Below are positions 8,677 to 31,098 of a DNA stretch of 52,463 bases, piece by piece. Made by a program: the position numbers and the translations under genes. The notes beneath the pieces were generated by a model. It did not search any database. It was not told where the DNA came from and saw only the letters and a list, made by a program, of their open reading frames with translations. This DNA is from Tyzzerella sp. (lineage in GTDB: Bacteria > Bacillota > Clostridia > Lachnospirales > Lachnospiraceae). Every line of letters starts with the position of its first letter. The stretch's first letter is position 1. Location: assembly GCA_017472665.1 (NCBI GenBank), contig JAFUOS010000010.1:1-52463 (forward strand), in the 5' to 3' direction.

Positions 8677-10116
8677 TTAATAGCTTACTCTTTGTTTTTT
8701 CTTTTCCTTACTTGTACTGCATGCCCAGTACGCTAATATAATACTGTCAAGAATTGCAACCTCAATTCCCTCTTTTTGCGCTTTATATCCAAATCCGCCA
8801 TTGGTGCCAATGGCTCGTTTTTCACAGTTGCCAACAATTTGTTCGACAGAAGGCTGACCCATATGTACAATATTTGTTTGAAATACTCCTTGTTCAAAAG
8901 AAGAATTCGCAACAATAATTTCACTTACTTTTGGAAGAACTGGAGCTTTCATTTTGCACTCCTTCATTTCATCGGCAAGTAATTGTTGCCCATTTGCCCC
9001 ATCTACTATTACTTTCTTTATTGATGGATTCATTAAAAATTGTAAAATCCATAAATTTCCAGATTTTACTTCGCAGCAATCTACCGTTTCTACAAATATC
9101 TTACCTTCCTTAGTCTTGATTGCAATCGATAACGCCACATAGCTGCCTTCATGCCCATATTTAATTCCTACATACATAGGACCTGTTAATTGCGGCAATT
9201 CCTTTACTTTCATCTCTGCCCATTCAGTTTTACTAATTGCAGATTTTTGATTATATTTCAACCATAATCCCAAACGTTGGATATTAAAGTCAACTTCATC
9301 AGAGCCAATCTCATCTGTAATGGATCGTTCTGTAAAGATAGTGCCTAACGATGGATTTGTTTCATACCACAACTCCTTATCTCTGACATTAGACATTTCT
9401 TCTACAGACCATTCAGCCCATCCTGTATTTAGCCTTGCGCCCGCTAGGGTATCATTCCGCATTTTCGTAAATACAGTTCCTGAACTTACTGGTGTTGGTG
9501 GAGTTCCGCAAAAAATAGTCTGAGGATTCTTTGAATCCGTAACAACATACTTTAGAGCTGATTCCTGGTCATCCGTATACTCCTGCGCCTCATCAATAAC
9601 CAATAAGTCAAATCCTTCACCAAGACCACCTTTTGACGAACGTGTTCTAAAATCACAAGAACCGCCACCTTCATCGAGCAATGTGATTCTTTCCAGGCCA
9701 AATTGTTTCGAATAGGTATAGGCTTTCTCATATTGCACTCCGTTTTTGGGTCTTGCAATTTCTGTATAACCAGCCCCGTTCAAAATGCTTGCAAGTCTTT
9801 TTGATGCAGAGCTGCTAGTTGTTGTTCTATGCGCTGTATGAAGAATTTTTTCGCCGTGTTCAAGTCCATAAAGTTCTCTTATGGCTACAATCTCATTTTT
9901 ACCATTACGTCTAGGAACAGAATAACCGAATTTAGTATGTGTCCATAACCCATCTTCATTTACAGCTAAAATATCACTCAAGAGTAATTCTTGCCACTCT
10001 TGAGCGATTCTTCCTGACTTGTTGTAGGATTCTATCGCTTCCTGACCTTTTGTATTATAATAAGGCAACGCAACGGATCGAGTGGGTGTCTGACGTCCTT
10101 TTCTTAATTCTGTCAT
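8677..10116 (-). CDS. Phage terminase large subunit
   Basis: 479 residues. ATPase domain: an adenine/Walker A-type segment SVPRRNGKNE near residues 66-75 and Walker B FDLLVIDEAQEY with D175-E176. The nuclease half begins near MYVGIKYGHEG, where other terminases usually carry the first catalytic Asp; here the aligned position appears to be Lys. Later acidic residues remain (VIVDGANGQ and AILDSIILAYW). It pumps DNA into the procapsid and cuts it. The location, after portal and minor head and before scaffold, is unusual, and hairpins lie on both sides. No small terminase subunit was recognised. Confidence 0.88.
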   Translation of the reverse strand: MTELRKGRQTPTRSVALPYYNTKGQEAIESYNKSGRIAQEWQELLLSDILAVNEDGLWTHTKFGYSVPRRNGKNEIVAIRELYGLEHGEKILHTAHRTTTSSSASKRLASILNGAGYTEIARPKNGVQYEKAYTYSKQFGLERITLLDEGGGSCDFRTRSSKGGLGEGFDLLVIDEAQEYTDDQESALKYVVTDSKNPQTIFCGTPPTPVSSGTVFTKMRNDTLAGARLNTGWAEWSVEEMSNVRDKELWYETNPSLGTIFTERSITDEIGSDEVDFNIQRLGLWLKYNQKSAISKTEWAEMKVKELPQLTGPMYVGIKYGHEGSYVALSIAIKTKEGKIFVETVDCCEVKSGNLWILQFLMNPSIKKVIVDGANGQQLLADEMKECKMKAPVLPKVSEIIVANSSFEQGVFQTNIVHMGQPSVEQIVGNCEKRAIGTNGGFGYKAQKEGIEVAILDSIILAYWACSTSKEKKKQRVSY

Positions 10117-10140
10117 TTACCCCTCCTGTTTTATCGCATA

Positions 10141-10169: not shown

Positions 10170-10183
10170 GCAAACTAATTTAA

Positions 10184-10477
10184 TTATAACTCTTCTATTT
10201 CGCGTACCATTGCCTCAAACATTTCACTCTCCGACATTTCATCCATGTAAAAGAGGTCTCCATCTTCGCCAAATATGCCTTTCTTTGCTAATTCAAGATT
10301 ATCTGCATATTCAATAACCAATGCATTGTATGGTTCGCTCATACTATCCAATCGACAAACAAATCCGTCCTTTATCAAAAAGCACGTTCTTTCATCAATT
10401 GTAATACTTTCAAATTTTTGAGCCAATCTTTCACTGAGTATCTCTTTTCTCGATAATCTCATTTCCATTTGTGTCAT
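10184..10477 (-). CDS. Small acidic protein, candidate immunity partner
   Basis: 97 residues, about a quarter Asp/Glu, no recognised domain. It starts inside the last 47 bases of the minor head/toxin-like gene, behind GGAGG 11 bases upstream, so the two are translationally coupled. The acidic C-terminus (FGEDGDLFYMDEMSESEMFEAMVREIEEL region) and the tight pairing are what is seen for immunity proteins beside contact-dependent or phage-borne toxin domains. This is inference; a structural role in the head is the alternative. Confidence 0.55.
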   Translation of the reverse strand: MTQMEMRLSRKEILSERLAQKFESITIDERTCFLIKDGFVCRLDSMSEPYNALVIEYADNLELAKKGIFGEDGDLFYMDEMSESEMFEAMVREIEEL

Positions 10478-11549: not shown

Positions 11550-11560
11550 ACATCCACCAC

Positions 11561-12832
11561 CTATTCTGTAGGTTCTTGTCCAGTAATTGTGACTGGTGCG
11601 TCTATTTTGCTTGGCTCAATTCCTGTTAGTATCCTAAAGTTATCCTTGTTGAAATAACCTGGTACCGCTTGATTTATTTTAATTGCACCATCACCAATGC
11701 TTGATAACGTCGCTGCGTCTGGTTCAAATATCGGCTCCCACAACGGTTTTGTTAGATATAGTTGCTGTCGTTGGTATGCGTAATCATCTCTCAAACACGC
11801 AGCCAAATAACCGACATTTAAAAAACCACTTCCGAAATTTCTTTGAGCCTTCCGCGCCATTAATCTTAGATTTTCATGTGATGCTTTTATCGCTTCTGAG
11901 CTCGACGGATTATCCGAAACAAATCCCAAATCATCCAGTGTCAAACCTGTTTCTCCTGCAAACAATGCTGCAAATGTTCTTAATTGTTCTGTATAAGGAC
12001 TCATGCTCTGTTGTTGAAACTGGCCAACCGTTGGTTTATCGCCGTCTTCATCTTTGTCAATTCGCAGCAAACTCGACATCGTTACTTTCCATTTGTCCAT
12101 TTGCTCCGCATCACTCGACATTCCCAAAATATATTTCTGCGGGAAGCTGTAGAATTCTGCTGATATCTCTGAACGTTTAATTGTTCTTAGCGCGGACTCT
12201 TGTATTTTCATACAAGCCCTGCTAATCCTAGAATGTCCAAAAGGACGTTTGGCATCCGGTCTGTAAATAATTGGGACCAGTAATGGATAAGGCACCTTAT
12301 TTGTTATTACTTGTGTTTTGCTTTTGCCCTTGCGGATGAATTCTGTTCTCCTCGCCGTAAACCATGCTTCCAGTGTGGGTTTATTATTATCATCTCTTTC
12401 AAGTACTGCATATCCTTCTTTTAGCAATCCGGTAATTGGATCTATGATGCCCGTTGCATTTCCGCCATCAATAACTTGCAGCCTTGGATATCCCGTTTCA
12501 TCTGCTGATATGTAAACGAAACAGCAAGACGAAATCAGCGCTGATAAAACAGCACTGTCAAAGAATGTATCCGGATTATTCAGCTGGAATATTTCTTGTA
12601 AATCAAAATTATCATTATCCCATGAATAAAATATAATTCTATCAGCCAAACTGTCCACTGCTTTTCCGCACCAGCCAAGCGTTGCGGATAACCAATTAAA
12701 CTCTGGCGGTGCTGCTAACTGCAAATCCCTAGCTATATTTTTCATTTCATAGAACTTATACCTGGTTTCAACTCTCAGCTTTTTGTTTGCCAATTTGTTT
12801 CTCAGATAGGCAATTCCTTTACAATTTTCCAT
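11561..12832 (-). CDS. Phage portal protein (SPP1 Gp6-like)
   Basis: 423 residues. Forms the dodecameric ring at one capsid vertex through which DNA enters and leaves. Family features are the N-terminal helix with KFYEMKN, the SLADRI segment, the beta wing region with GIIDPITGLLKEGYAVLERDD, and the C-terminal clip/stem with GETGLTLDDLGFVSDNPSSSEAIKASHENL, a strong signature of Gp6-type portals. The ATG follows AAGGAG. It precedes the minor head gene, the normal order. Confidence 0.88.
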   Translation of the reverse strand: MENCKGIAYLRNKLANKKLRVETRYKFYEMKNIARDLQLAAPPEFNWLSATLGWCGKAVDSLADRIIFYSWDNDNFDLQEIFQLNNPDTFFDSAVLSALISSCCFVYISADETGYPRLQVIDGGNATGIIDPITGLLKEGYAVLERDDNNKPTLEAWFTARRTEFIRKGKSKTQVITNKVPYPLLVPIIYRPDAKRPFGHSRISRACMKIQESALRTIKRSEISAEFYSFPQKYILGMSSDAEQMDKWKVTMSSLLRIDKDEDGDKPTVGQFQQQSMSPYTEQLRTFAALFAGETGLTLDDLGFVSDNPSSSEAIKASHENLRLMARKAQRNFGSGFLNVGYLAACLRDDYAYQRQQLYLTKPLWEPIFEPDAATLSSIGDGAIKINQAVPGYFNKDNFRILTGIEPSKIDAPVTITGQEPTE

Positions 12833-12921: not shown

Positions 12922-13266
12922 CTATCCTCTGTACTTTCTCCAGTCCATCGATTGTGGTAAAATTCGATTACTTATAATCTCTGTATCCACGCTTGTTATG
13001 TCTTTCTTTTCAATCAGTTTATCCGATTTCTGCCTGTTGCATGTCCAGTGAGCTAATTGTAAATTGTCAATATCACTTGGATGTCCTCCCTTTGCAATCG
13101 GTATAATATGGTCAATGCAAGGTGATAATGGATGCGGATATTTCAAGCTATAGTCAACTGGCTTACCGCAAATACCACAAACTGTCTGTGTTGCAAATAT
13201 TTTCTTTTTATTCTTTTCGAATGCACCTCGATGCGTTCCGTAACGTTCTGCTCCTGTGTTGTTCAT
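12922..13266 (-). CDS. HNH endonuclease
   Basis: 114 residues. Zinc-binding CGICG and a later Cys in WTCNRQKS frame the HNH core: DHIIPIAKGGHPSDIDNLQLAHWTCN (D-H, then N, then H), beginning about residue 51. Small HNH proteins next to the packaging genes are common in phages that cut DNA at cos sites, where they assist the terminase. It is the first gene after the early-late terminator and is preceded by an AAGGA ribosome binding site. Between it and the portal (12,833-12,921) is only a short G/C hairpin, with no recognisable small terminase. Confidence 0.85.
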   Translation of the reverse strand: MNNTGAERYGTHRGAFEKNKKKIFATQTVCGICGKPVDYSLKYPHPLSPCIDHIIPIAKGGHPSDIDNLQLAHWTCNRQKSDKLIEKKDITSVDTEIISNRILPQSMDWRKYRG

Positions 13267-13292: not shown

Positions 13293-13333
13293 CAAAAAGA
13301 ATGGCAGCTAGTCTTACTAAATAGACTGCTGCC
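13293..13333 (-). terminator. Terminator between early/middle and late genes
   Basis: On the minus strand GGCAGC-AGTCT pairs with AGACT-A-GCTGCC (one bulged base, 8-base loop), followed by ATTCTTTTTG. The 5' arm contains one copy of the recurrent GGCAGCAG word. It lies between the late regulator gene and the HNH gene. Confidence 0.75.
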
Positions 13334-13401
13334 GTTTGTTTTCTTATTTTTCAACACTATCATAATAACACAGATTCTTGTCCTCTGATTACGGCTCTTT
13401 G

Positions 13402-13809
13402 CTAAATTTTCTTAGAAAGAAGATAATAAAACTTTCGCCGGCGGTTGTAATACATATCTTTGCCACATGGAATATGTTTGGACGTCTTTAAGTATCTATA
13501 TGTGACATACTCCTGCGTGACTCCCTCTAGTATCCACGGATAAAGCTCTGCATCCGCTTCAATTGCAGTCTGCTCAATGATTTCACACTTCTTGCTAAGC
13601 CGTGCCCTTCTTTCTGCAAGTTCTGCTGTTTGGTCCTTGTAGTTGTGTGATGTTGGCATATCTGTTATTTGAATACTCTTTACAGTGTCCGTGATGTATT
13701 TTAATTCTTCTTTCCATTCTGGGTACTGCATACAGAAGTGATACAGTTCTAGGAATCTATGTTTGCTTATTTCATATTTTTCACTGTTTAGTGGTCTTAC
13801 GTTTGGCAC
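13402..13809 (-). CDS. ArpU/RinA-like late transcription regulator, probable
   Basis: 135 residues from a GTG at 13809, which lies 8 bases after a perfect GGAGGTGA site; an ATG at 13872 is possible but lacks a good site. Helical protein whose C-terminus (VTYRYLKTSKHIPCGKDMYYNRRRKFYYLL) has the sigma-region-4-like helix-turn-helix of ArpU/RinA phage activators. These switch on the packaging and head operon. It is the last early gene and a terminator follows before the late genes, which matches such a role. Two GGCAGCAGT words lie in its 5' untranslated region. Confidence 0.65.
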   Translation of the reverse strand: MPNVRPLNSEKYEISKHRFLELYHFCMQYPEWKEELKYITDTVKSIQITDMPTSHNYKDQTAELAERRARLSKKCEIIEQTAIEADAELYPWILEGVTQEYVTYRYLKTSKHIPCGKDMYYNRRRKFYYLLSKKI

Positions 13810-13955
13810 TGGTATCACCTCCCTGTATGTGTACTGCTGCCTACTTCGTTTTATTATGTACTGCTGCCGCATGTTGTAGATACTCTAATACATTCATTAT
13901 TGGCAGTCATTTCTTTTCTTGATTTTGAGTTGTTTTCTGTTCTTCTGTCATGCTA

Positions 13956-14120
13956 TCACCTCTTCCCCGTCAGTTCGTCCTTTAAATAATTCATAAGTTC
14001 CTGAAGTCTTGTACATTGCTTGGCTGCATAGGAACCATTTCTTTTAAAATACTTTTTCTCGACAGCCTGTACTCTCTTGTAAAATTTCTTAAATAACCAT
14101 TTGTAATATAATCTTTTCAT
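13956..14120 (-). CDS. Small basic phage protein, unknown
   Basis: 54 residues from ATG 14120 (MKRLYYKWLFKKFYKRV), chosen over an upstream in-frame start because GAGGGAT precedes it and it lies just after the upstream stop. Rich in Lys/Arg/Tyr, probably helical, with no known domain. It is one of a string of tightly packed small early genes. Confidence 0.5.
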   Translation of the reverse strand: MKRLYYKWLFKKFYKRVQAVEKKYFKRNGSYAAKQCTRLQELMNYLKDELTGKR

Positions 14121-14121
14121 G

Positions 14122-14307
14122 TTATCCCTCGCTTTCTGGATTGTATGATGCTGCGCAATCACATTCTCTTAAAATTTCATCTTCATCAAAATTACAGGCT
14201 TCTGCAAAATCACAGACAATTGTTCCGCCTATACTTTCTTGTGCATCCATGCAAGCAACACACTTACCTGTTCCGAATTTGCTATTGCATCCAATCATCC
14301 ACTCCAC
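14122..14307 (-). CDS. Small cysteine-rich phage protein, unknown
   Basis: 61 residues with seven Cys (GKCVACMD, VCDF, EACNF, ECDC), suggesting metal binding. AAGGAG lies 7 bases before the ATG. It is flanked by genes of similar size with 1-5 base spacing. No family recognised. Confidence 0.55.
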   Translation of the reverse strand: MEWMIGCNSKFGTGKCVACMDAQESIGGTIVCDFAEACNFDEDEILRECDCAASYNPESEG

Positions 14308-14312
14308 GCTCC

Positions 14313-14486
14313 TTACTGCATCTTCATAACTTTTACTAAAAGTTCACCCATAAGAGCGTCTTGTTTTTTCTCTCGCTCTTTTGAATCAAGTGCTTCATCT
14401 TCAATTACGTCTGCTATCTTGTCATATACATCTGCAATTTCTCTGTGACTTTCTGCCATTTGTCTAAATTCTTTTCCTTCGTTCAT
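14313..14486 (-). CDS. Small helical phage protein, 57 residues, unknown
   Basis: MNEGKEFRQMAESHREIADVY then a charged helical body, ending KVMKMQ. The start overlaps the previous stop (ATGA) and follows AGGAGG at 6 bases; the stop is just before the ribosome binding site of the next gene. Length, coupling and codon pattern support it. Likely a coiled coil. Confidence 0.6.
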   Translation of the reverse strand: MNEGKEFRQMAESHREIADVYDKIADVIEDEALDSKEREKKQDALMGELLVKVMKMQ

Positions 14487-14704
14487 GATCTTCCTCCTAA
14501 TATCTCGTCTATGCAGGCGTTGTAAGAATACGGAAATTTTTCTTTATTCGGAATTTCATGCAATGGACACCATTCTTGTCTTCTGATTGCCCACCCGCAT
14601 TCCATCATTTTTCCATTTCCACCACAAAGATTAATTTTTTCTTCAAATAGGGGACATTTTGTACAACACTTTGGCATATCCATAATCAACATTGCTTTAC
14701 TCAT
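14483..14704 (-). CDS. Small zinc-ribbon-like phage protein
   Basis: 73 residues. Cys pairs CCTKC, CGG, CGW and WCPLHEIP form a likely zinc-binding cluster. The C-terminal tail YNACIDEILGG is nearly identical to that of the gene ending at 15452, at both protein and DNA level, and its last codons hold the ribosome binding site of the next gene. Function unknown. Confidence 0.6.
   Translation of the reverse strand: MSKAMLIMDMPKCCTKCPLFEEKINLCGGNGKMMECGWAIRRQEWCPLHEIPNKEKFPYSYNACIDEILGGRS
14493..14524 (-). repeat. 32-bp direct repeat, copy 1 (copy 2 at 15462-15493)
   Basis: The two copies differ at one base (14512 G versus 15481 A equivalent). Both encode the tail YNACIDEILGG and include the AGGAGG ribosome binding site for the following gene. 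They mark a duplicated gene end in the small-gene cluster. Confidence 0.75.
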
Positions 14705-14808
14705 TCACTCCACCTGCCTTTACGTCTCTTGCACATGAGCGAAACATCATCAACAACATTTCGCTCACTGGTCTACTTCTGTCTTTCCGTCTTGCTTTCT
14801 TTACACAC

Positions 14809-15153
14809 TTACCCTACATAGATTACAATTGCTTTTGTAAACTGCATTCTGCTGATTTGCTTTTCTACAAACTCTTCTAAATCCTTTTTCATGTAAGCTC
14901 CGCCGATGCAGAAGTTATCGTAATATTTGTTCATTAGCTTGTCTCTCATGGTGTCTCTTTCAACATACCTGTCTCCATCCATTGTTAGTTCCTTAATTTT
15001 GATTCCTTTAACATCTACGGAGTTATAATCATATTCGCCACAATAGCTTTCTTCTCCTGCGAAGATAAGTAACGGAAGCTCTGGATTTTCTAGAATCATC
15101 TTCTTTAGTTCTTCTGTATTTTCCATAGATACCGGAATTTTAATCTCACTCAT
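14809..15153 (-). CDS. Phage protein of unknown function
   Basis: 114 residues from ATG 15153 (MSEIKIPVSMENTEELKKMI), preferred because GAGGTGG is 7 bases upstream; an ATG 21 bases earlier has no such site. Mixed alpha/beta, with ESYCGEYDYNSVDVKGIKIKEL mid-protein. No signal peptide or membrane segment. The 100 bases between it and the next gene hold no further frame. Confidence 0.5.
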   Translation of the reverse strand: MSEIKIPVSMENTEELKKMILENPELPLLIFAGEESYCGEYDYNSVDVKGIKIKELTMDGDRYVERDTMRDKLMNKYYDNFCIGGAYMKKDLEEFVEKQISRMQFTKAIVIYVG

Positions 15154-15170
15154 TGTTTGCCACCTCGATT

Positions 15171-15452
15171 TCAATAACTTCCAAAATGTACTTTTACATA
15201 TTGTCCTGGAACATCAGTTGCGTAGTATAACCATCCGTAAAAATCATCTTCTATATAACCTTGATATTGTTTTACATAATATTCATCAGCCACTAATTCA
15301 AGATGACTTAATTGTTCTTTGCTCATAGACACTAAATGAGCCGTATTCCATTCAATATCGTCAACATCTATCCTCTCAGCTAACTGTTCTGATAATCTTT
15401 GAATCTTTTGTATGTACTTTGCAATTTGTTTAATTTCTTTATACTGTTTCAT
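15171..15452 (-). CDS. Phage protein of unknown function
   Basis: 93 residues starting MKQYKEIKQIAKYIQKIQRL. The start shares a base with the previous stop (TGATG) and GGAGGTGG precedes it, so it is coupled to the gene with the YNACIDEILGG tail. The N-terminal half is a predicted coiled-coil helix; the C-terminal half is aromatic (DDFYGWLYYATDVPGQYVKV). Confidence 0.5.
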   Translation of the reverse strand: MKQYKEIKQIAKYIQKIQRLSEQLAERIDVDDIEWNTAHLVSMSKEQLSHLELVADEYYVKQYQGYIEDDFYGWLYYATDVPGQYVKVHFGSY

Positions 15453-15811
15453 CACTCGCCACCTCCTAATATCTCGTCTATACAGGCGTTGTATTTTTCC
15501 TCGTTTGCAAATGAAATTACTCTCCTTAGCAGACACTCTTCACATGTGTCAAACTTTCTGCATTTCCCTAGTTCTGTCATCTCTTTACAATATGCTTCTC
15601 TGTTATCTGCATATATGAGGTTTTTTATTTCTTCCACAACCTTATCCACGTTGTAGGCTGTCGGTTGTTCATCAATAATTCTTAGCACGCTGTCTCTGTA
15701 TTCGTTCATAATTTTCTGTAAAATACCTTTTCCTGCTCGTAATCCAGTAATTGTCATTCGCAGGCTTTCGATTTCTTGCTTTAACGCACTTCTGCTGATT
15801 AAATCATCCAT
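15452..15811 (-). CDS. Phage protein with Cys cluster and YNACIDEILGG tail
   Basis: 119 residues from ATG 15811 (MDDLISRSALKQEIESLRM), with GGAAGG upstream. MDDLISRSAL is a common opening of small Lachnospiraceae phage proteins. A C-terminal cluster CRKFDTCEECLLR could bind metal. The tail duplicates that of the gene at 14483-14704. Function unknown. Confidence 0.6.
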   Translation of the reverse strand: MDDLISRSALKQEIESLRMTITGLRAGKGILQKIMNEYRDSVLRIIDEQPTAYNVDKVVEEIKNLIYADNREAYCKEMTELGKCRKFDTCEECLLRRVISFANEEKYNACIDEILGGGE

Positions 15812-16124
15812 TGTTATTCCTTCCAAATCTATCTCTAAAATCCATCTGTTCCGTATACTTGACATATATATCTTCATCGCCATAACCTTCAATGCGGATT
15901 TTATTAAAACATTTTCGTTCTGATACAAGCCAATGAGCTTCTCGCATGACTGCTGCCAACTTCATGTAAGGAACTGTCATTACATTTGTTTTATCTCCAA
16001 ATATCGTAATGCATTCTTCACATTTAATGGATTTTCTAAAACGCTTATATGCTTCTGTTTGAGTTTCTAACTCCATTCCAAAAGTTGAACCATTAAATTC
16101 AACCGCATGTAATTGTTTTGCCAT
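15804..16124 (-). CDS. Phage protein of unknown function
   Basis: 106 residues (MAKQLHAVEFNGSTFGM). Contains a CEECITIF motif. The C-terminus overlaps the next gene start by 8 bases. It carries the CTGCTGCC word at 15950 in the Ala-Ala frame. No family recognised. Confidence 0.45.
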   Translation of the reverse strand: MAKQLHAVEFNGSTFGMELETQTEAYKRFRKSIKCEECITIFGDKTNVMTVPYMKLAAVMREAHWLVSERKCFNKIRIEGYGDEDIYVKYTEQMDFRDRFGRNNNG

Positions 16125-16125
16125 G

Positions 16126-16386
16126 TTACATCCACGCTCCTACTATGCATTTATCATCATCTGCTCCTCTGTTGAAAAATATCATATTCGTGTTGTCTCT
16201 GATATCTTCCTGGACTGCTGCCAATGTGTCTTTTAAGATGATAGTGTCTGTTGGTCTATCTGTGTCAAATACTCTTGCTACGTAATATTCCGGATAATCC
16301 TTTGGATGATCATATATTGCTATTACAGGAAGCTTCAGACCACTTAGGTCTAATTCCTTAATGCTTGTTGCTAACTTTACTGGCAT
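16126..16386 (-). CDS. Conserved small phage protein, unknown
   Basis: 86 residues (MPVKLATSIKELDLSGLKL). Beta-rich with a DHPKDYPEYYVARVFDTDRPT core; the compact form suggests a single small domain. Its start follows directly on the stop of a 39-residue membrane peptide gene, with GGGAGGAAAG upstream. It carries the octamer at 16215. Confidence 0.5.
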   Translation of the reverse strand: MPVKLATSIKELDLSGLKLPVIAIYDHPKDYPEYYVARVFDTDRPTDTIILKDTLAAVQEDIRDNTNMIFFNRGADDDKCIVGAWM

Positions 16387-16506
16387 TTATTTCTTTCCTC
16401 CCTTTTTGTGTATTTCGTCGTATAAAATTAATCCTATTACGATCGCTAACAGAATGACTGCTGCCGTCAAGATTATCTTGACGGTCAGTATCAGTCTATA
16501 AATCAT
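16387..16506 (-). CDS. Single-span membrane peptide, 39 residues
   Basis: MIYRLILTVKIILTAAVIL continues into a hydrophobic helix of about 22 residues and ends in YDEIHKKGGKK, so it would sit in the membrane with a basic tail. It starts within the last codons of the upstream gene and stops immediately before the next start; translation is probably coupled, as no strong ribosome binding site is present. It carries the octamer at 16458. Confidence 0.5.
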   Translation of the reverse strand: MIYRLILTVKIILTAAVILLAIVIGLILYDEIHKKGGKK

Positions 16507-17830
16507 TTGTAGTGTCAGATACAACATCCCGATTGTCATTACTTCCATCTTGCTCCTCCGATACTTCTAGGTTTTTAGTCCCTAAGATACAATAGCCGTC
16601 TACCAATCCGGTATAATCTTCCAACTTGTAGATAACTTCCTGCTTTAAGATACGGCCGGTGAACTTGCCATCGTCAAACTCCATCTTTTCTAAGACATCA
16701 CCTACTTTGTAGTTTCTGTCGTCTTTTCTAAGGGTAAATGGTTTGATGCCGCTCTCTGCGTCCGCGAAGAATGTTTTTCCTACTTTGATTCGGTGGACTG
16801 TCTTTGGCATTTCACTTGGAAGCACAGCCATTTTCTTTTCGTCTTCCATCTCTTCGAGCTTTTTCTTGGTTTCACGGTCGATTTTGGCCTGTTTTTCATT
16901 GTATTTTTGCTCTTCCGTCTTATGTACTGCTGCCGGCTTTGGTTTTTCTTTTGCCTTCGAAACTTTACTTTCCTTCTTCTGAGCCGTTTTCTTTTCCTCC
17001 GTTTTTGGTTGCACCGGTGCAACTTCCTGTTTTTTGGGAAATTCTTTTCCATACTTGCTTTCCCACGATTCTTTCATGGTCTCGCATTCAGTATTTACTG
17101 AACTTTCCAGGCATTTAACCACTGTTTCCCATGAGTAAAATTCCTTTTCACTAGTACGTACCGAAATTAGCGCTACCTCTTTTTCAGAATCTTTCAATGA
17201 CAGCATCATTCTCCCCACGCCTTGAATTCTTATGCTGTACATTTTTTCTCCTGAAGGTGCTAGGCATAACTGTATGTTTTCCAGTGTTGCAATGCCCTCT
17301 TTGAATGCCGTAAATATTGCGCCATATAAATCCGTGTCATCTTCCAATAGCTGATGTAGTGCTTTGGCCAAATTGTTGTCAAGGAGCTTTTGTTCTTCCT
17401 TTTCTCCTTCGATCAGTAATTCAATATCACTTACTGCGCGTTCTTTGTCTACTTCTTCCTTTATCGCCGTGATTTCGCTTTTGCTGTAGCCTGGTGTCAA
17501 TTCCTCGTTAATCTCTTCCGGAAGCTGCAGCATAATCGCTAACTTGGTATATCCAAAGCCTCTATACTGTTCTTTAAGCTGCTGAGAGCAACCACCCTCA
17601 GCAAACTTATCATTGATATGGATAAATCTTGATACCATCGATTTATCCAGGTTGTATTCCGCTTTTGCAAATTCGTTTACATTTGCATATCCTGATCCGC
17701 TTAAGATATCTGTATCGCGGGCCAGCTTCAGTAAATAACCGATTCTAACAAATCCCTCCGCTGTTTCCTTTAATTGCTTGTCCAGTTCCTGCTTATATTC
17801 TTGATAATTTGATACTGTAATATTTTCCAC
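16496..17830 (-). CDS. Two-part phage protein: DUF3102/ParB-like N-terminus, DUF3850 C-terminus
   Basis: 444 residues, GTG start sharing a base with the PcfJ-like stop and preceded by GGAGGCGG. Residues 1-130 (ENITVSNYQEYKQELD, FVRIGYLLKLARD, GYANVNEFAKAEYNLDKSMV) resemble a helical DNA-binding module. Residues about 270-345 are a Lys/Glu-rich linker. The last ~90 residues match DUF3850, an ASCH/PUA-like RNA-binding fold: VHRIKVGKTFFADAESGIKPF, TLRKDDRNYKVGDVLE, then DYTGLVDGYCILGTK. The function of this combination is unknown; it accompanies PcfJ-like genes. Confidence 0.65.
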   Translation of the reverse strand: MENITVSNYQEYKQELDKQLKETAEGFVRIGYLLKLARDTDILSGSGYANVNEFAKAEYNLDKSMVSRFIHINDKFAEGGCSQQLKEQYRGFGYTKLAIMLQLPEEINEELTPGYSKSEITAIKEEVDKERAVSDIELLIEGEKEEQKLLDNNLAKALHQLLEDDTDLYGAIFTAFKEGIATLENIQLCLAPSGEKMYSIRIQGVGRMMLSLKDSEKEVALISVRTSEKEFYSWETVVKCLESSVNTECETMKESWESKYGKEFPKKQEVAPVQPKTEEKKTAQKKESKVSKAKEKPKPAAVHKTEEQKYNEKQAKIDRETKKKLEEMEDEKKMAVLPSEMPKTVHRIKVGKTFFADAESGIKPFTLRKDDRNYKVGDVLEKMEFDDGKFTGRILKQEVIYKLEDYTGLVDGYCILGTKNLEVSEEQDGSNDNRDVVSDTTNDL

Positions 17831-19905
17831 TATACCGCCTCCATAAAATCTTCCATGAGTCCATTTAGTACTCTAGTGTTATTTTTTGCTTTCAGTTCCT
17901 CTATGTTCTTTTCTCGTTTCACTGCACTAATTTGAGCATACTCACGGTCTTTTTTGCTTAGTTTTTTCCTAAGTACCTGCTGCCACTCTCGGAGGAATGG
18001 CTTCACCTTTTCAATCTCCGGTTCTTCATCCAGATATCCTCTATGTTGTCTTATTGTTCCTCCCGGTTCTACTTCGATGGTGTAATATGGCACCTTGGGT
18101 TCCGCTTTCTTTCTGCAGAAGCAAATATATGTTTCTCTTTGCTTAATTCTGTCAAAATAACGGTCCGTAGCACCAGCACAATGATGCAGCACCCGTCCTT
18201 CTGCTATAATTTCTGCCAAACGCTCTGGAACGATGATTATGTATTCATCGTTCTCATATTCGAATTTGTGTTTAATCTCTTTCAAAACATCCTCTGCTCC
18301 TGGAAAACGCGCACTATATTCATCCGCATTAATTTCTGCATTCCTTAGTTCAATCTCCATTACAGCTTCGTCGTGTCGTTTTTTTAATTCTCTTGGCCGA
18401 TATACCATTTCATCTGCTGTTCGTTTCTTTAAACAAACGCACATATTCAGATAATCTTTCCATTGTTCCAGTATTGCCTTTGTACTTCTTCCGGAATATC
18501 CTTCTTCCTGCTGCCTTTTTACATAATTCATAATCTGCTGTAAGCTCATTCTTTCAGCTATGAATTTTGTATCACTCCGCTCTAAATTGTTCTTTAACAA
18601 CCACTCTAGAACATCCTGTGGAATCTTCTTTCCAGTTTGGTCTGACCAGCGCATCCAGTCTAAAATCTTTTTACCGCCATCCAAATCTCTAATCCTGTTG
18701 ATTTTTTGTCGGTCTTTGATTTCAAATACTTCTTCAATGTTTTTTCCATTCTTGTGTAATGGTCCGAAATATTTACAGCTCCACAATGATATATCTTCTG
18801 AACTTTCTTGCAGTAAGCGATTAAATTTTCCTTTAAACAGATATTCTATGGTGTTGATAAAATCTGGATCATTCTGTGTAGCCATTAATCTGTTGTAGTT
18901 TAGTTTCTTTCCTGCTATTGCCAGTTGCTTAAATAACCTTGCCCACGGTTCGTAAGCCGTGTCACTTAAACATTCTTCGATATTTTCCTCGTACAAATAT
19001 CCTGAATACATTCTTCTGTTTTGCGGATTTCCTTTATTGTCAAATAATCCCCACTGCTTCCAATATATATCACATACATATTTAGGACTGTGCTTCAATT
19101 TGAATAGTGTAACTCTCGTTGATTCCAGCATGTCAATTGTACGCCCATCTGTAGACCACTCGATTTCCACATCGAAATGTCTTGCCACGCTTCTTAATTC
19201 ATCCAATGGCTGGAGTATCATAAAATGTGTTTGCATAGTCTGTGTCCTGGTTCTTTTCTTTGCCTGTATTACCTTTTTACACCTTGGGCAGATGACCATG
19301 TCATTGTGACGGATTTTTTCTCCTCCATCTATTCTGTGAAGATATTTTTCTCCATAACTTTTTTCGCATGCGGTGCAGTACCATTTTTTCTGTTTTTTGT
19401 CGTAAAATGCATAATCGATATTGCCTGCCTTTTCAAAAATCCAGTCGCTTATTCCCTCCTGCAATTTAGGAACTTTTTCCATTACTTCTTTTACTCGATT
19501 CCAGCGTCCCTCTTCTGCTTTATACCTTTTCTCTCTTTCTCGGTCTGTTTCTGCGTTATCAATTACATCAAATGTACTGTCGCTTTTATATTTCTTTGAA
19601 AACATATCGAATATGATTTTTTCTTCTTCGGCGGTCATTTTTAGACGTTTTTCCGCTTCGCAATGCGAATACCAGGTTCCTGTGTAGCCCAGCAGATTTA
19701 CCAGTTTTTTATGGTGCCATTCTTTTTTCTTCTCGTCCCATTGTTCGTATTCGCGCGTGTCTGCATTAATGCAGTGTCTGCCCTGAAGAAGTCTATCTTT
19801 GTAAACATTGAGAATCAGAATCCGGTCCAACGTCTGTACAGTTACAGACCAGCCACCTTTCTTTGTTTTGGTCGGCGTCAGCTGTTCTATTGCCTTTTTT
19901 CTCAT
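17830..19905 (-). CDS. PcfJ-like protein
   Basis: 691 residues. A zinc ribbon lies at C177-C180 and C206-C209. The PcfJ domain follows near residues 560-640, with VLHHCAGATDRYFDRI, then ETYICFCRKKAEPKVPYYTIEV and the RQHRGYLDEEPE segment. PcfJ was named from the pCF10 conjugative plasmid; its biochemical role is not established and homologues are common in mobile elements. The start overlaps the upstream stop (ATGA) behind GGAGGTGG. Two octamer copies lie within it. Confidence 0.8.
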   Translation of the reverse strand: MRKKAIEQLTPTKTKKGGWSVTVQTLDRILILNVYKDRLLQGRHCINADTREYEQWDEKKKEWHHKKLVNLLGYTGTWYSHCEAEKRLKMTAEEEKIIFDMFSKKYKSDSTFDVIDNAETDREREKRYKAEEGRWNRVKEVMEKVPKLQEGISDWIFEKAGNIDYAFYDKKQKKWYCTACEKSYGEKYLHRIDGGEKIRHNDMVICPRCKKVIQAKKRTRTQTMQTHFMILQPLDELRSVARHFDVEIEWSTDGRTIDMLESTRVTLFKLKHSPKYVCDIYWKQWGLFDNKGNPQNRRMYSGYLYEENIEECLSDTAYEPWARLFKQLAIAGKKLNYNRLMATQNDPDFINTIEYLFKGKFNRLLQESSEDISLWSCKYFGPLHKNGKNIEEVFEIKDRQKINRIRDLDGGKKILDWMRWSDQTGKKIPQDVLEWLLKNNLERSDTKFIAERMSLQQIMNYVKRQQEEGYSGRSTKAILEQWKDYLNMCVCLKKRTADEMVYRPRELKKRHDEAVMEIELRNAEINADEYSARFPGAEDVLKEIKHKFEYENDEYIIIVPERLAEIIAEGRVLHHCAGATDRYFDRIKQRETYICFCRKKAEPKVPYYTIEVEPGGTIRQHRGYLDEEPEIEKVKPFLREWQQVLRKKLSKKDREYAQISAVKREKNIEELKAKNNTRVLNGLMEDFMEAV

Positions 19906-20483
19906 ACTGCCACCTCCTGAAGGGATCTATCACTTCGCAACGTGTAAAGTGTATCTGCTTTTGTTCCCTCGCCTGCTACGAACAGTTTTGCTGCTTCAAT
20001 CTCTCCTGGTTCTGCCTCTAAAATCAGACCCAGAATACTTCCTTCTGCTCCTTTTACTACTGGATGCGGACCTCTTGCAATTGCTATCGCTCCTTTTTGG
20101 TTTGCTTCCGCTTCATTTTCCTTTACAGAAAGTAAAGTTTTTGACTGCTGCCAGTTTTTTCTCATTGGATGCTGCACCATGTACATCATTCCATAACCAG
20201 CCAATTCTTTTATTGTCAATTCGTTCAAAAGCGTAATTTTTGTGCATGAAACTCTTTCGGTTTCATCTTCGTCAATACTTCCTTCTGCCTCAATTTGAAC
20301 ATATCGATTACTGCTACCAAGTGGATAGTATGCCAGACAATCAAATGGATTTTCTGTAAAATGAAAACCTGTTCTCATAGTTTTACTTGCTGTTTCTTCA
20401 TAGGTTTTTCCTAATTCAAACTTAAAATTTCCTTTTCCTAATGCTGCTGTCAGATTCTTTGTAAATCCCTTGTATCCAATCAT
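19902..20483 (-). CDS. Phage protein with DUF7666-like fold, unknown
   Basis: 193 residues. GYKGFTKNLTAALG, then GFHFTENPFDCLAYYPLG and RYVQIEAEGSIDEDE form a pattern seen in small phage and mobile-element proteins grouped as DUF7666-like. No catalytic motif is evident. It is translationally coupled to the PcfJ-like gene, so the two probably act in one process. Family call is tentative. Confidence 0.5.
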   Translation of the reverse strand: MIGYKGFTKNLTAALGKGNFKFELGKTYEETASKTMRTGFHFTENPFDCLAYYPLGSSNRYVQIEAEGSIDEDETERVSCTKITLLNELTIKELAGYGMMYMVQHPMRKNWQQSKTLLSVKENEAEANQKGAIAIARGPHPVVKGAEGSILGLILEAEPGEIEAAKLFVAGEGTKADTLYTLRSDRSLQEVAV

Positions 20484-20492
20484 AGAAGCCTC

Positions 20493-20987
20493 CTATCCTA
20501 CGTAGTAGTTTCTGATAATCTTTTTCGCTTCCGCCTTACTTGGAATGCCCATATACACAGGATCCTTTCTATTACCATTTCTGAGTCCTGCTGCCTTGCA
20601 GATAATTTCGCTGACCTGTTTTTTACTGTTAAATGAGTACTTTAGCAGCTCTCCCATACAGTTTGCTAATTTCTTGCCTTTCTTTCTGACTGCCTTACTG
20701 AATTCTTCATCTTCAGTGCAAATCTGAACAATGCTTTCTTTCCAGTCCTCAAGCACTCCTACAAGTTCTAATTCTTTTGCTTCGATATTCAATTTTCCAA
20801 CTGCTGCCATCAAAGGCGTTGCCAGTTCCGGAGCGTAGCCTTCAATGAATTCTTCTGCATCTTCTTTGTCGATGCCGTTTTCCAAAGCAATTGCAATAAC
20901 GGCTTCCATATCTCCGCCTTTTAACTGAGCGTCTGCTGCTCTATTTAATTCTTCAACTGAGTCAAATTCTCCAAATTTTTCAAACAT
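20493..20987 (-). CDS. Helical phage protein co-occurring with PcfJ
   Basis: 164 residues from ATG 20987 (MFEKFGEFDSVEELNRAA), chosen because GGAG lies 7 bases upstream; an earlier in-frame start would overlap the previous gene. All-helical and acidic in the first half, basic in the C-terminal part (AVRKKGKKLANCMGELLKYS), ending MGIPSKAEAKKIIRNYYVG. I have the impression this family recurs beside PcfJ-like genes in Lachnospiraceae; its role is unknown. PcfK-type is a possible comparison but is not shown. Confidence 0.55.
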   Translation of the reverse strand: MFEKFGEFDSVEELNRAADAQLKGGDMEAVIAIALENGIDKEDAEEFIEGYAPELATPLMAAVGKLNIEAKELELVGVLEDWKESIVQICTEDEEFSKAVRKKGKKLANCMGELLKYSFNSKKQVSEIICKAAGLRNGNRKDPVYMGIPSKAEAKKIIRNYYVG

Positions 20988-20997
20988 TTCTCTTCTC

Positions 20998-21219
20998 CTA
21001 TCTTGTCCTGCTGCCATATCCGAATCTTTTCCGGACGGCCATGGTTGCTTCGTTCCATTCTTCTGTGAATTTATCCCATTCCTTTAAAGTTATTTGTAAA
21101 TTACTTAACTTTTGTCTGAATGATTTATGTTCTCTGCATACTTTTCCTTTGTGCTCGCAGTACTGCTGCCGCATGCAGTTATCGCATGTCTTATTAATTG
21201 TTTCTTTGCCAATTCCCAA
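20998..21219 (-). CDS. Small Cys-containing phage protein
   Basis: 73 residues, TTG start (GGGAG 10 bases upstream). CDNCMRQQYCEHKGKVCREH forms a CxxC...C...C zinc-binding-type cluster, followed by a helix. It precedes the helical protein by 10 bases. Two octamer copies (21008, 21163) lie in it in different frames. Confidence 0.5.
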   Translation of the reverse strand: MGIGKETINKTCDNCMRQQYCEHKGKVCREHKSFRQKLSNLQITLKEWDKFTEEWNEATMAVRKRFGYGSRTR

Positions 21220-22515: not shown

Positions 22516-23238
22516 TTAAATCCTCCTATGCAGCCTTATGTATGTGTAGTGTCTGTACAGGTAGCCAGTGTACTTATTTTTAGCTTCGTAGAATGTTTCT
22601 TTCTCGATGTAGAAGCCTTCTTTTTCCTTTGGTTCTCTCATTCTGTAGAATGTCTCTTTTTCCGGCTCTGGAAGTGGCATATTTCTTGATGTAGAATAAT
22701 TTGATTCCTTTAGTCTCGGTTCTGTCTTTGGTGTTTTGGTAAGATAACTTGCTAGTTTAGCTGGACTTCCTACCTTGTACATGGTTTTTGGTGTGACTTG
22801 TCCATACGGCCACGCTTTATCAAGAATCAAATCAATATCCGGAATACGATTGATTGCCATGTGTACATGCCATGCATTCCTGGTACCAACTTCTATATTT
22901 CTGATCCAGTAAACCTCATATCCTCTTTTCCGAAATTCTTTCCTAACTTCCCGGATAAACTTTTTAAAATGGTCTTTGGCTACTTCCATGCTTGCTGGCC
23001 TTTCCTTTTTGTCATAGGTAAGCTCTACAAATTTGTCATGGCTCTCTTGGAAATACATCCAGAGCCGGTGTCTACACAACTTTTCCCGATTCCATTGATT
23101 CCGCTTGTCCATCTCTTCTGGTGTTGCCTTCTTTTTCTTTTTCCTCGGTGAACCTCTTGCACCGTATCTTCCATCCAGGTACTCATGTACTTCTATGGCA
23201 TTTTCGAACGTATATATTATTCTCCTGTATCTTTTCAT
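22516..23238 (-). CDS. HUH-type replication initiation protein (Rep)
   Basis: 240 residues from ATG 23238 (AAGGAC upstream). All three rolling-circle Rep motifs are visible: motif I FVELTY (70-75), motif II HVHM with H124 and H126 in WHVHMAINR, and motif III YLTK with catalytic-type Y165 and K168. The family nicks one DNA strand at an origin and stays linked to the 5' end. Such a Rep in a siphovirus-type prophage is less common than a DnaC/helicase module, none of which is visible. Candidate origin inverted repeats lie just upstream. Confidence 0.75.
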   Translation of the reverse strand: MKRYRRIIYTFENAIEVHEYLDGRYGARGSPRKKKKKATPEEMDKRNQWNREKLCRHRLWMYFQESHDKFVELTYDKKERPASMEVAKDHFKKFIREVRKEFRKRGYEVYWIRNIEVGTRNAWHVHMAINRIPDIDLILDKAWPYGQVTPKTMYKVGSPAKLASYLTKTPKTEPRLKESNYSTSRNMPLPEPEKETFYRMREPKEKEGFYIEKETFYEAKNKYTGYLYRHYTYIRLHRRI

Positions 23239-23325
23239 CTGTTTTACGTCCTTGGTTCTATTTTTAATAATTTTAACAAGTTGCAAAAAGGGGCTAAAAA
23301 TCCCCATTTTTCTTGACCTTTTGCC

Positions 23326-27009: not shown

Positions 27010-28077
27010 ATGAAGATGCCAAATGGATATGGTTCTGTTGTGAATTTAGGAAAAAATCGTAGAAAACCTTGGGCTGTTCGTGTCACTACCGGATACAGGT
27101 TAAATGCAAATGGAACTTGCACTCAAACGTATAAGTATTTGGAATATTTCGAAAAGCGAAAAGATGCTTTTGCTTATCTTGCAGCTTATAATTCCGGTCA
27201 GGTTGTAAAAGAACACGAAGCACTCAGCGATATTCCGACCTTTAAGGAAATCTATGAATCCTGGATTGAATATAAGAAATCTCGCAAAAAACCTATCAGT
27301 AACAGTACTGCAAGAAATTATGATATCGCTTTTAATATGCTTTCCGACATTCATCACAAACGCATCAATATTATTACTCTTGATGATCTGAACTTGAATG
27401 TAGCAAAGTACAGCGATAAATCAAAATCTACACTCGGTTTTATCCGGACTGTGTTGAAGCAGTCTTTTGATTATGCTATTAAGCGTGGACATATCGAGAA
27501 GAATATAACTAATTACGTTGATTATGAATATACGGAATCCGAAGAAGAAATACACAAAGACTTTTCTTTGGAAGAGATTGAAAAACTTTGGGAACTGCTG
27601 CCACTCTATCCTGATATCAAGTTTGCATTAATACTTTGTTATACTGGCATGAGACCTCAGGAAATGGTCAAAATCAAAACAGAGAATGTTTTTATCAATA
27701 AAAGGTATATGATTGGTGGTATAAAAAGCGAAGCTGGAACAAATCGCAAAATACCACTTCATAAAAAAATCATTCCTTTGATCGAAGAACTATATAATTC
27801 GGACAATGAATATCTGGTTATGACTCCAAATGGAATTCCTTATTCTTATTCGAATTTTCGTCAAAATGTATGGAAACCACTTATGTTGCAAATTAGTATG
27901 GACCACTTAATGCATGATGGACGTCACACTCTTTCCACTGGTCTCAAACGTGTTGGTGCAGATAATCTGTATCGGAAACTTATCATGGGCCATTCTATAG
28001 AAGATCTCACTGACAGAGTTTATACGCACGTTCCTGTTTCGGAATTAGTTAAAACCATTGACATGTTAGACTACTAA
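27010..28077 (+). CDS. int: Tyrosine recombinase, phage integrase
   Basis: 355 residues from ATG 27010 (AAAGGAG 8 bases upstream; an earlier ATG at 26956 lacks one). N-terminal arm-binding-type domain (MPNGYGSVVNLGKNRRKPW), a SAM-like core-binding domain near 75-170, and a catalytic domain with R215 (YTGMRPQEM), H302-x-x-R305 (HDGRH), H328 (IMGHS) and nucleophile Y338 (DRVYTH). It carries out integration and excision of the prophage. It is the last phage gene before host rplT. One CTGCTGCC copy is at 27595. Confidence 0.92.
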   Translation: MKMPNGYGSVVNLGKNRRKPWAVRVTTGYRLNANGTCTQTYKYLEYFEKRKDAFAYLAAYNSGQVVKEHEALSDIPTFKEIYESWIEYKKSRKKPISNSTARNYDIAFNMLSDIHHKRINIITLDDLNLNVAKYSDKSKSTLGFIRTVLKQSFDYAIKRGHIEKNITNYVDYEYTESEEEIHKDFSLEEIEKLWELLPLYPDIKFALILCYTGMRPQEMVKIKTENVFINKRYMIGGIKSEAGTNRKIPLHKKIIPLIEELYNSDNEYLVMTPNGIPYSYSNFRQNVWKPLMLQISMDHLMHDGRHTLSTGLKRVGADNLYRKLIMGHSIEDLTDRVYTHVPVSELVKTIDMLDY

Positions 28078-29733: not shown

Positions 29734-31098
29734 ATGAATCAACGTAGTAATTTTACTAGTAAGATTGGTTTTGTCCTTGCTGCTGCCGGTTCAGCTGTCG
29801 GTCTCGGAAACATTTGGCGTTTCCCTTATCTTGCTGCACAACACGGTGGTGGAACTTTCTTGTTAGTATATTTGATTCTGTCTGTAACTTTTGGTTTCAC
29901 ATTAATGGTTGCCGAAATTGCAATCGGACGAAAAACAGGATTGAGTGCCATTGGAGCATTCAAAGCATTGGATAAGCGCTTTGGATTCTTAGGAGTTCTT
30001 ACATCACTTGTTCCAATCATTATCCTTCCATATTACAGTGTAATTGGTGGATGGGTAATTAAATATTTTGCAACTTATGTTTCTGGTGGTGCACACGCTG
30101 CTGCTGATGACTCATATTTTACAAACTTTATCGGTTCACCTATTGAACCAATTGGCTGGTTCTTCTTATTTATCGCCCTTACTGCTGTCATTGTATTATT
30201 CGGTGTCGAAAAGGGTATTGAAAAAGTAAGTAAATTTATGATGCCAGTTCTTGCTATATTAACCATAGGCATTGCGGTTTATGTTATCACAAGACCTGGT
30301 GCTATGGATGGTGTTATATACTACATTAAACCTAACTTCAAGGACTTCTCGCCTACTACCATCCTGGCGGCTATGGGACAATTATTCTACTCCATGTCGT
30401 TGGCAATGGGTATCATGGTTACATATGGTTCATATATGAAAAAAGATAACAACTTGGAAAGTTCTGTTCGTCAGATTGAGATCTTCGATACAGCAATTGC
30501 TTTCCTTGCAGGTCTTATGATTGTACCTGCCGCATATATGTTCTACGGCGGCTCTACAGAAGGCCTCAAAAAAGGACCAACACTTATGTTCGTGATTCTT
30601 CCAAAAGTATTTGAAGAAATGCCAGGCATTATGGGAACTATTATCGGTGTTGCATTCTTCTTATTAGTATTTTTTGCTGCTCTTACATCTTCTATCTCAT
30701 TGATGGAAACGGTTGTTTCTATTATTATGGATAAGGTAAAATGGAACAGGAAATTTACTTGTATCGTAGTTACTGTATTTTCACTGATTATGGGTATTCC
30801 TTCTTCATTGGGATTCAACGTATGGGGACACATTACATTCTTAAATGATCTTACATTCTTAGACTTATTTGACTTTGTAAGCAACAGTGTGATTATGCCA
30901 ATCGTAGCGTTCTTTACATGCATCCTTGTTGGTTTTATTATTGGACCAAAGGTTGTTGCAGATGAAGTTAAAGAAACAGATGGCAAATTTAAGAGTGAAA
31001 AATTATTTACAGTGATGATTAAATGGGTTGCACCAATTTTCATTCTTGCAATTCTTGCATTCTCAGTTGCAGAAGGTATGGGTTGGATTACTGTATAA
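29734..31098 (+). CDS. Sodium-dependent transporter, NSS (SNF) family
   Basis: 454 residues, the usual length of bacterial members. The N-terminal signature SKIGFVLAAAGSAVGLGNIWRFPYL (substrate- and sodium-site helix 1) is intact, followed by about 11 membrane segments in the LeuT fold. It imports an amino acid or related amine with sodium; substrate cannot be read from sequence. Monocistronic: own promoter, GAGGAGG ribosome binding site, strong terminator after it. Confidence 0.93.
   Translation: MNQRSNFTSKIGFVLAAAGSAVGLGNIWRFPYLAAQHGGGTFLLVYLILSVTFGFTLMVAEIAIGRKTGLSAIGAFKALDKRFGFLGVLTSLVPIIILPYYSVIGGWVIKYFATYVSGGAHAAADDSYFTNFIGSPIEPIGWFFLFIALTAVIVLFGVEKGIEKVSKFMMPVLAILTIGIAVYVITRPGAMDGVIYYIKPNFKDFSPTTILAAMGQLFYSMSLAMGIMVTYGSYMKKDNNLESSVRQIEIFDTAIAFLAGLMIVPAAYMFYGGSTEGLKKGPTLMFVILPKVFEEMPGIMGTIIGVAFFLLVFFAALTSSISLMETVVSIIMDKVKWNRKFTCIVVTVFSLIMGIPSSLGFNVWGHITFLNDLTFLDLFDFVSNSVIMPIVAFFTCILVGFIIGPKVVADEVKETDGKFKSEKLFTVMIKWVAPIFILAILAFSVAEGMGWITV

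Follow-up and report, generated by a model that had tools for sequence, protein, structure and literature searches.

A strand-biased, G-rich octamer in the early genes of Lachnospiraceae phages is probably a Chi-like site for the host AddAB enzyme

The 52,463-nucleotide contig JAFUOS010000010.1 of a Tyzzerella sp. assembly (GCA_017472665.1, family Lachnospiraceae), referred to below as the window, contains a prophage whose early region carries one octamer repeated many times in a single orientation. It reads CTGCTGCC on the forward strand; on the opposite, G-rich strand, which encodes the early genes, it reads GGCAGCAG. We propose, with a probability of about 0.7, that GGCAGCAG is a Chi-like, orientation-dependent DNA word read by the AddAB enzyme of the host. 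The feature is real and widespread, and resembles Chi in its strand bias, its position and its independence of the type of replication. A Chi-like role was among the options named for the octamer in the initial annotation of this DNA, and it is the one favoured here.

Exact matching recovered 18 copies of CTGCTGCC in the window, all on the forward strand and none on the reverse strand, whereas dinucleotide shuffles of the whole window gave a mean of 0.99 and a maximum of 4 copies (100 shuffles). Fourteen of the 18 fall in 13326-21170, in agreement with the initial annotation, and the two further phage copies that it had listed, at 2170 and 27595, were found in the same orientation. The density in the early region reaches 1.8 copies per kb. 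Between 12800 and 25000, CTGCTGCC tops all 8-mers for over-representation (14 copies versus 0.57 expected from a trinucleotide model), and 10 copies extend to ACTGCTGCC. Sites 13326 and 16458 fall outside the listed open reading frames (ORFs), and the former does form the 5' arm of a hairpin followed by a T-run, as expected from its annotated place in the early-late terminator stem. The copies had also been assigned to all three codon phases; phases 1 and 2 are occupied in early genes, and phase 0 is seen only in a doubtful ORF (20998-21219) and in the integrase gene. Synonymous-codon shuffles of 17 early ORFs gave a mean of 3.15 copies against 13 counted, with a maximum of 11 (0 of 2000 shuffles reached 13), and the word ranked first among the 8-mers tested in this way; the 13 counts correspond to 12 distinct copies, that at 21008 being counted in two overlapping ORFs. 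Codon-matched shuffles fall short of the count, and the proposal that selection acts on the nucleotide sequence and not on the protein is borne out.

Viral contigs without stated hosts, named genomes and 397 genomes of the family were the sources of loci encoding a related HUH replication initiator (Rep). A related Rep was present in 61 of the 397, and 40 of those loci were fetched; by title, 24 of the 25 named-genome loci are from Lachnospiraceae or genera of that family, and one (L099) is from a Clostridiales bacterium. The set comprised 117 Rep loci (L numbers below; G numbers are genomes), including the window phage and a second prophage of its host, and 94 after 23 near-duplicates had been dropped; near-duplicates were retained in the recombinase-locus, Rep-to-terminase (TerL) density, opposite-strand ORF and integrase/repressor counts. 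The 94 non-redundant loci hold 738 copies of the word on the Rep strand versus 84.9 expected, and 13 reversed copies versus 20.4 expected. Six or more copies were found in 61 of these 94 loci (76 of all 117). A fixed 7-mer rule gave a clear word on the Rep strand in 84 of 117 loci and on the reverse strand in none of the 117; by the same rule, 4 of 101 loci around phage recombinase genes, described below, show one on either strand. Whether the copies are conserved in position or only in number was compared in relatives: sites mostly turn over, a single column (523) of the PcfJ-like gene being common to the window phage, L027 and L029, and none of the other site columns of that gene being in common with the window phage.

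The clear 7-mers were GCAGCAG (63 loci), GGAGCAG (7), GCAGCGG (7), GCAGAGG (2), GTAGCAG (2), GAAGGAG (1), GGAGCGG (1) and GCAGGGG (1). In some Rep loci another G-rich word is the strongest strand-biased one: GGCAGCGG is present in 7-13 copies in L181, L106, L082, L140 and others, GGTAGCAG in 11 copies in L176, GGGAGCAG in 16 copies in L077, GGCAGGGG in 9 copies in L183 and CGCAGAGG in 11 copies in L085. All variants lie within a GGNAGNRG-like family. Genome G168 harbours two phages: the top word of L201 is GGCAGAGG, and L214 combines GGCAGCAG with GGCAGAGG; this host is possibly in transition or of relaxed specificity.

Codon use (Ala-Ala, Gln-Gln) together with GC skew might be suspected of producing the word as a side effect, as GCAGCAG is common in host genes and codon shuffles account for most host copies. 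This explanation appears scarcely credible for the phages, where the early genes exceed every one of the 2000 shuffles, and where the Rep-strand ORFs of the 63 GGCAGCAG-class loci hold 463 copies against a codon-shuffle mean of 128 (the largest of 200 shuffles being 151); moreover, intergenic copies exist and the words differ between phages. Chance, composition and codon use were thus rejected for the phages on the basis of the dinucleotide and codon shuffles.

The signal is most likely carried by the DNA, because copies in opposite-strand genes keep the Rep DNA strand. In opposite-strand ORFs of the 63 loci, 90 copies lie on the Rep strand against 13.4 expected, and only 1 is in the sense orientation (2.5 expected). 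As some of these ORFs may be spurious, the 7-mer core was recounted on 16 identified integrases and 21 repressors encoded on the opposite strand (31.8 kb, some redundant), where it goes with the DNA strand, not with the transcript, in 8 copies against 1. These counts speak against a signal acting in early transcripts, through antitermination or an RNA-binding protein, which had been among the suggested roles. Early-gene copies are indeed sense and one lies within a hairpin, but the strand kept in the integrases, the repressors and the wider set of opposite-strand ORFs makes an RNA signal highly improbable.

The copies concentrate between replication and packaging genes. The density of each locus's own 7-mer rises from about 0.5 per kb upstream of Rep to 1.1-1.4 per kb in the 8 kb downstream, then drops; across 28 loci it is 1.33 per kb between Rep and TerL or portal, 0.65 before and 0.69 after. 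In lambdoid phages, the Chi copies likewise sit between replication genes and terminase, according to the portion of Bobay, Touchon and Rocha 2013 consulted (PMC3784561).

Butyrivibrio fibrisolvens DSM 3071, a single strain for which PMC7372960 describes five phages, made it possible to judge how far the word depends on the HUH Rep. Four of the five were examined (Arawn, Arian, Bo-Finn and Ceridwen; Idris was left out). Arawn, which has an HUH Rep, holds 31 copies, 3 reversed, versus 8.8 expected. Two closely related phages, Arian and Bo-Finn, are annotated as having a replisome organizer and hold 17 copies each with none reversed (1.7 and 1.6 expected); PHROGs confirms in Arian a replisome organizer and a DnaC-type loader (DnaD/DnaC type). 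The 18-30 kb interval, which contains the replication and small-terminase/HNH genes, holds 12 of 17 copies in Arian and 11 of 17 in Bo-Finn. The word is thus not tied to the HUH Rep, since two phages of DnaD/DnaC type carry it. Relatives of the Arian replisome organizer were also sought; the one locus found was weak and was not used. Ceridwen has a single copy versus 1.9 expected; ten of its proteins were scanned and include an Erf-like annealing protein (2.2e-15) and a NinB/Orf mediator (PHROGs). The Erf and Gam/Gp157-like models match only Ceridwen among the four phages.

A replication signal of the HUH Rep, such as a single-strand origin, a primase site or a site recognized on the displaced strand, would account for the strict strand bias and for the density peak just downstream of Rep. 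It is nevertheless very unlikely, as Arian and Bo-Finn share both word and strand bias and some sites lie far from Rep. An HUH-linked signal is contradicted by these two phages unless they contain an unseen HUH protein. Other words with a very strong strand bias were also noticed in the DSM 3071 phages: CAGATCAT occurs 19 to 0 by strand in Arawn (L298; 0.1 expected), and in Arian (L300 and L301 being Arian and Bo-Finn) the split is 16 to 0 for AGATCAGG, against 0.3 expected, and 10 to 0 for AAGCCTTGA.

The word is not enriched near phage recombinase genes. Loci of the Erf type hold 44 copies versus 35.5 expected (80 loci), Gam/Gp157-like loci 9 versus 5.2 (12 loci) and RecT loci 2 versus 2.4 (9 loci). 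On neither strand does any of these 101 loci have six or more copies; three Erf loci come closest, with five. Conversely, the Erf, RecT and Gam/Gp157-like models match none of the 117 Rep loci, the Red-beta and Sak families being outside these models. At about 3.3 kb each, the RecT loci are short; they stem from bacteria related to the host at the family or order level, three of them from its genus; the RecT model has no positive control beyond its seed loci. Matches to PF07352 (Mu Gam) were limited to 3 of the 397 family genomes, one above the cut-off, and were not used as a set. In the part of the E. coli study available to us (PMC3784561), lambdoid phages without a recombinase show the highest over-representation of Chi (median observed-to-expected ratio, O/E, 3.1), and those with a recombinase and a RecBCD inhibitor avoid it. 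The contrast between Rep and recombinase loci fits this rule only along its main line.

The host of the window is represented by a 1.66-Mb assembly that is 65% complete. Outside its two prophages, a 639-kb sample unscreened for additional mobile elements holds 53 copies of the word (about 0.08 per kb), 49 on the G-rich strand and 4 reversed. The sampled chromosome is therefore far from the density of the early region, which disposes of the concern that word and host genome might be similarly dense; likewise, codon-preserving shuffles do not reproduce the phage count. A chromosome polarity word of the FtsK/KOPS type was considered and rejected, the host copies being skewed (49 to 4) but sparse. 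GGCAGCAG also lies within a stretch of the 16S rRNA that we take to be universally conserved (a PCR primer region), and one copy is presumably to be expected per rRNA operon. The 49 copies compare with 18.8 expected from trinucleotides, a 2.6-fold excess that gives the word rank 66 among 8-mers; E. coli Chi has an O/E of about 2.3 by a trinucleotide-type model, as given in the text consulted (PMC3784561). GGTAGCAG, GGCAGCGG and GGCAGCAG were further counted in 38 host genomes, a comparison confounded by GC content. G247, whose phage word is GGTAGCAG, is in the top three genomes for GGTAGCAG density, the other two having GGCAGCAG phages; G259 and G208, whose phage word is GGCAGCGG, have the two highest GGCAGCGG/GGCAGCAG ratios, and G180 and G267 are unremarkable.

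The second prophage, on host contig G000:C7 at about 154-197 kb (L009, L010, L011), holds 34 copies in 43 kb with none reversed. It is barely related to the window phage, its portal belonging to another family and its Rep being about 25% identical over part of the length, and its genes include an HUH Rep, a ParA and a protein with ParB_N and DUF3850. It also encodes a C5-cytosine methylase, a radical SAM protein and a MazF-like protein.

That a phage-encoded DNA-binding protein, for instance an early protein of the ParB/DUF3850 type, reads the word in the way of stoperators or partition iterons seems unlikely to us. It would agree with the clustering in the early region and the weak enrichment in host genes, and a DUF3850 protein is present in the window phage, in prophage 2 and in L073. 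However, L026 and L027 carry 10 and 11 copies and show no DUF3850 match, which rules this protein out as the common reader, and no ParB/DUF3850-type protein was found among those Arian proteins (not all of them) that were scanned. Furthermore, related Rep proteins go with different words, and a phage-encoded reader does not predict the non-enrichment near recombinase genes. The earlier suggestion of a binding site for one phage protein is disfavoured, as no common reader is evident and related Rep phages use different words. Mycobacteriophage stoperators are short asymmetric sites spread across the phage in one orientation, and are repressor sites lying mostly between genes. The sites described here share with them their shortness, asymmetry and single orientation across the phage, but lie mostly inside genes, are common to unrelated phages and go with no evident common repressor.

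The addB_Gpos model matched in 58 of 59 genomes (29 of 29 and 29 of 30), some matches being fragments and 30 of the 59 genomes lying above the curated cut-off; 58 of the 59 tested genomes are Rep-phage hosts, G210 being without a Rep match. This test of the host enzyme covers its AddB subunit. For the AddB of the window host, the alignment with the solved B. subtilis protein spans almost the full length (2.8e-163). F68A and F210A are Chi-binding mutants of the B. subtilis protein in the part of PMC4824097 consulted. In a 52-protein alignment, columns 43-44 rank 1-2 of 261 conserved columns in separating hosts of ..GG words from hosts of ..AG words, when hosts are chosen by hand (6 ..GG and 37 ..AG hosts of the 52; G168, with mixed words, and 8 others left out). 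With rule-based classes, unusual residues at 43-44 occur in 4 of 5 ..GG hosts versus 2 of 33 ..AG hosts (Fisher 0.001); here 38 of the 52 hosts have a clear word, and G340, G411 and G422 were dropped by hand despite a word by the rule. Outside the 52-protein set are G210 and six genomes with broken or missing AddB or unfetched pieces (G244, G261, G353, G419, G420, G421). The covariation of positions 43-44 with the word is suggestive only of a specificity set by AddB. The Rep tree and the AddB tree each need 8 word changes, and 5 each between ..GG and ..AG; because the counts are equal, the trees cannot tell control by the host from control by the phage.

Several observations weigh against a reading by AddAB. 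A clear enrichment in host genes is missing: with codon use kept, genes of the window's host hold 41 copies versus 29.2 (1.4-fold; 1 of 200 shuffles reaches this), those of the congener G005 hold 16 versus 13.9 (55 of 200 shuffles reach this), and G259 holds 18 copies of its phage word GGCAGCGG versus 19.7 in codon-preserving shuffles. The congener count left out three stretches of G005, namely L072 and L073 with the prophage region, and L067, excluded for its 8 copies although its phage status is unproven. Because host genes show little excess at fixed codon use, the strong enrichment belongs to the phages. In the survey, 33 of 117 Rep loci have no clear word by the 7-mer rule. The recombinase rule fits only in part, and the Erf and Gam contigs were compared without known hosts. 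The 'Gam' label of Ceridwen is doubtful, PHROGs naming a Mu Gam-like protein and Pfam a Siphovirus Gp157. In E. coli, Chi remains over-represented in phages that have a recombinase and lack a RecBCD inhibitor (median O/E 2.5, from the same portion of PMC3784561), and for this reason the non-enrichment near Erf and RecT genes is not simply a Chi prediction; either the recombinase-only class differs here from that of E. coli or it has unseen inhibitors. As to AddB, the independent pairs number only five and split about 4 to 1 (p 0.375 by a sign test); columns 338, 266 and 446 separate the word classes equally well or better. Three predictions from AddB were set beforehand, of which those for G419 and G420 held in the main and that for G421 failed.

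RecBCD and AddAB enter at a double-strand end, follow the 3'-ended strand and respond to Chi met from its 3' side. If GGCAGCAG is read by AddAB, it would tell the enzyme to stop degrading the DNA end and to start recombination. The window phage would make linear ends through its packaging cut and as rolling-circle tails, and AddAB would attack the ends arising from packaging or rolling-circle replication. PHROGs and Pfam scans of its early proteins name no recombinase or end-protection protein, and because no such gene was found in it, the phage may have accumulated the Chi-like words of its host. In the window, the active direction would lead away from the late-gene border near 13 kb, with coordinates increasing into the early region, and 13326 would be the first site reached by AddAB entering from a packaging end near 13 kb. 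HNH proteins are associated with packaging, and the one encoded at the late-gene border would fit a nearby cut. The sites would then convert AddAB attack into recombination, giving concatemers.

A broader proposal, which we advance tentatively as quite possible, is that the AddAB enzymes of Lachnospiraceae have GGCAGCAG, GGCAGCGG, GGTAGCAG, GGGAGCAG, GGCAGGGG and CGCAGAGG as their Chi words. Specificity would have changed several times in the family via the AddB positions that correspond to residues 43-44 and 211-214 of B. subtilis, and recombinase-less phages would have rewritten their genomes each time, a phage thus showing the Chi word of its host even where the chromosome does not.

The resemblance to lambdoid Chi, as far as described in the text consulted (PMC3784561), extends to a G-rich octamer located between replication and packaging genes and, at least in part, to its strongest enrichment in phages that lack a recombinase of their own. 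The differences are that the present phages belong to hosts of another phylum with AddAB instead of RecBCD, that the words are new and vary between phages of one bacterial family, that many of the phages have an HUH Rep, and that host enrichment is weaker; the density reaches 1.8 per kb here versus 0.2 per kb in Rec- lambdoids, and recombinase loci without a known inhibitor are not enriched here and are in E. coli (same source). The sections of PMC8022716 consulted state that Chi-like sequences are known for five species, with four more putative motifs added in Proteobacteria, and list for Firmicutes B. subtilis AGCGG, S. aureus GAAGCGG and L. lactis GCGCGT (as printed). The present words are likewise asymmetric and G-rich, and are here attributed to an AddAB-type enzyme; GGCAGCGG includes AGCGG, and its last seven bases equal GAAGCGG bar one. 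Unlike the Firmicutes words, the main word ends in AGCAG and is visible mainly in phages. Literature searches, judged mostly from listings and with most subscription journals outside their coverage, found no published account of these words. If the AddAB reading is true, a Chi word would be named for a bacterial family that is dominant in gut and rumen, phages could reveal Chi words masked by codon bias in host genomes, and the E. coli phage rule that absence of a recombinase goes with abundant Chi would span phyla and enzyme classes; the differing words would suggest that AddAB specificity evolves within one bacterial family. The DSM 3071 phages offer a cultured test system, with Arawn, Arian and Bo-Finn carrying the word and Ceridwen without it.

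Table 1. Sites and genes of the window phage and its flanks (site strands refer to GGCAGCAG).
Feature	Position	Strand	Basis
14-site cluster of GGCAGCAG	13326, 13834, 13861, 15950, 16215, 16458, 16927, 17977, 18508, 20145, 20588, 20801, 21008, 21163 (8 bases each)	-	exact matches, codon shuffles
Late-most site, in terminator-like hairpin stem about 60 bp before HNH gene	13326..13333	-	fold -17.9 kcal/mol, then T-run
Lone site in late-region gene (ORF 1505-2359)	2170..2177	-	exact match
Site in plus-strand integrase gene, antisense to its transcript, keeping the DNA strand of the cluster	27595..27602	-	exact match
Copy in flanking host DNA, in plus-strand SNF-family transporter gene, same DNA strand	29780..29787	-	exact match
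Other host-flank copy, DNA strand as in the cluster	47532..47539	-	exact match
HUH replication initiator (REP_ORF2-G2P, phrog_3584), upstream border of dense region	22516..23307	-	Pfam 1.8e-15, PHROGs 5.1e-42
HNH endonuclease at late-gene border, likely near packaging cut	12922..13266	-	Pfam HNH 2.2e-12, phrog_338
Portal protein	11561..12832	-	phrog_104 3e-115
Large terminase subunit	8677..10116	-	phrog_9 1.2e-67
Early protein with C-terminal DUF3850	16496..17830	-	domain and protein comparison
PcfJ-like early protein gene with two sites	17830..19905	-	Pfam 1.2e-28

The product of 16496-17830 is fusion-like. Its N-terminal half is common with proteins of L026-L029, a type of half that occurs in site-bearing phages without DUF3850, and its C-terminal DUF3850 recurs in the ParB-like proteins that prophage 2 and L073 encode. 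High-copy short direct repeats unrelated to the word were seen in L100, L124, L137 and L138, for example GCCGACCTG 16 times in 12 kb of L100. Finally, the late-gene order in 8677-12832 of the window is unusual, the portal and minor head genes lying ahead of the large terminase gene.

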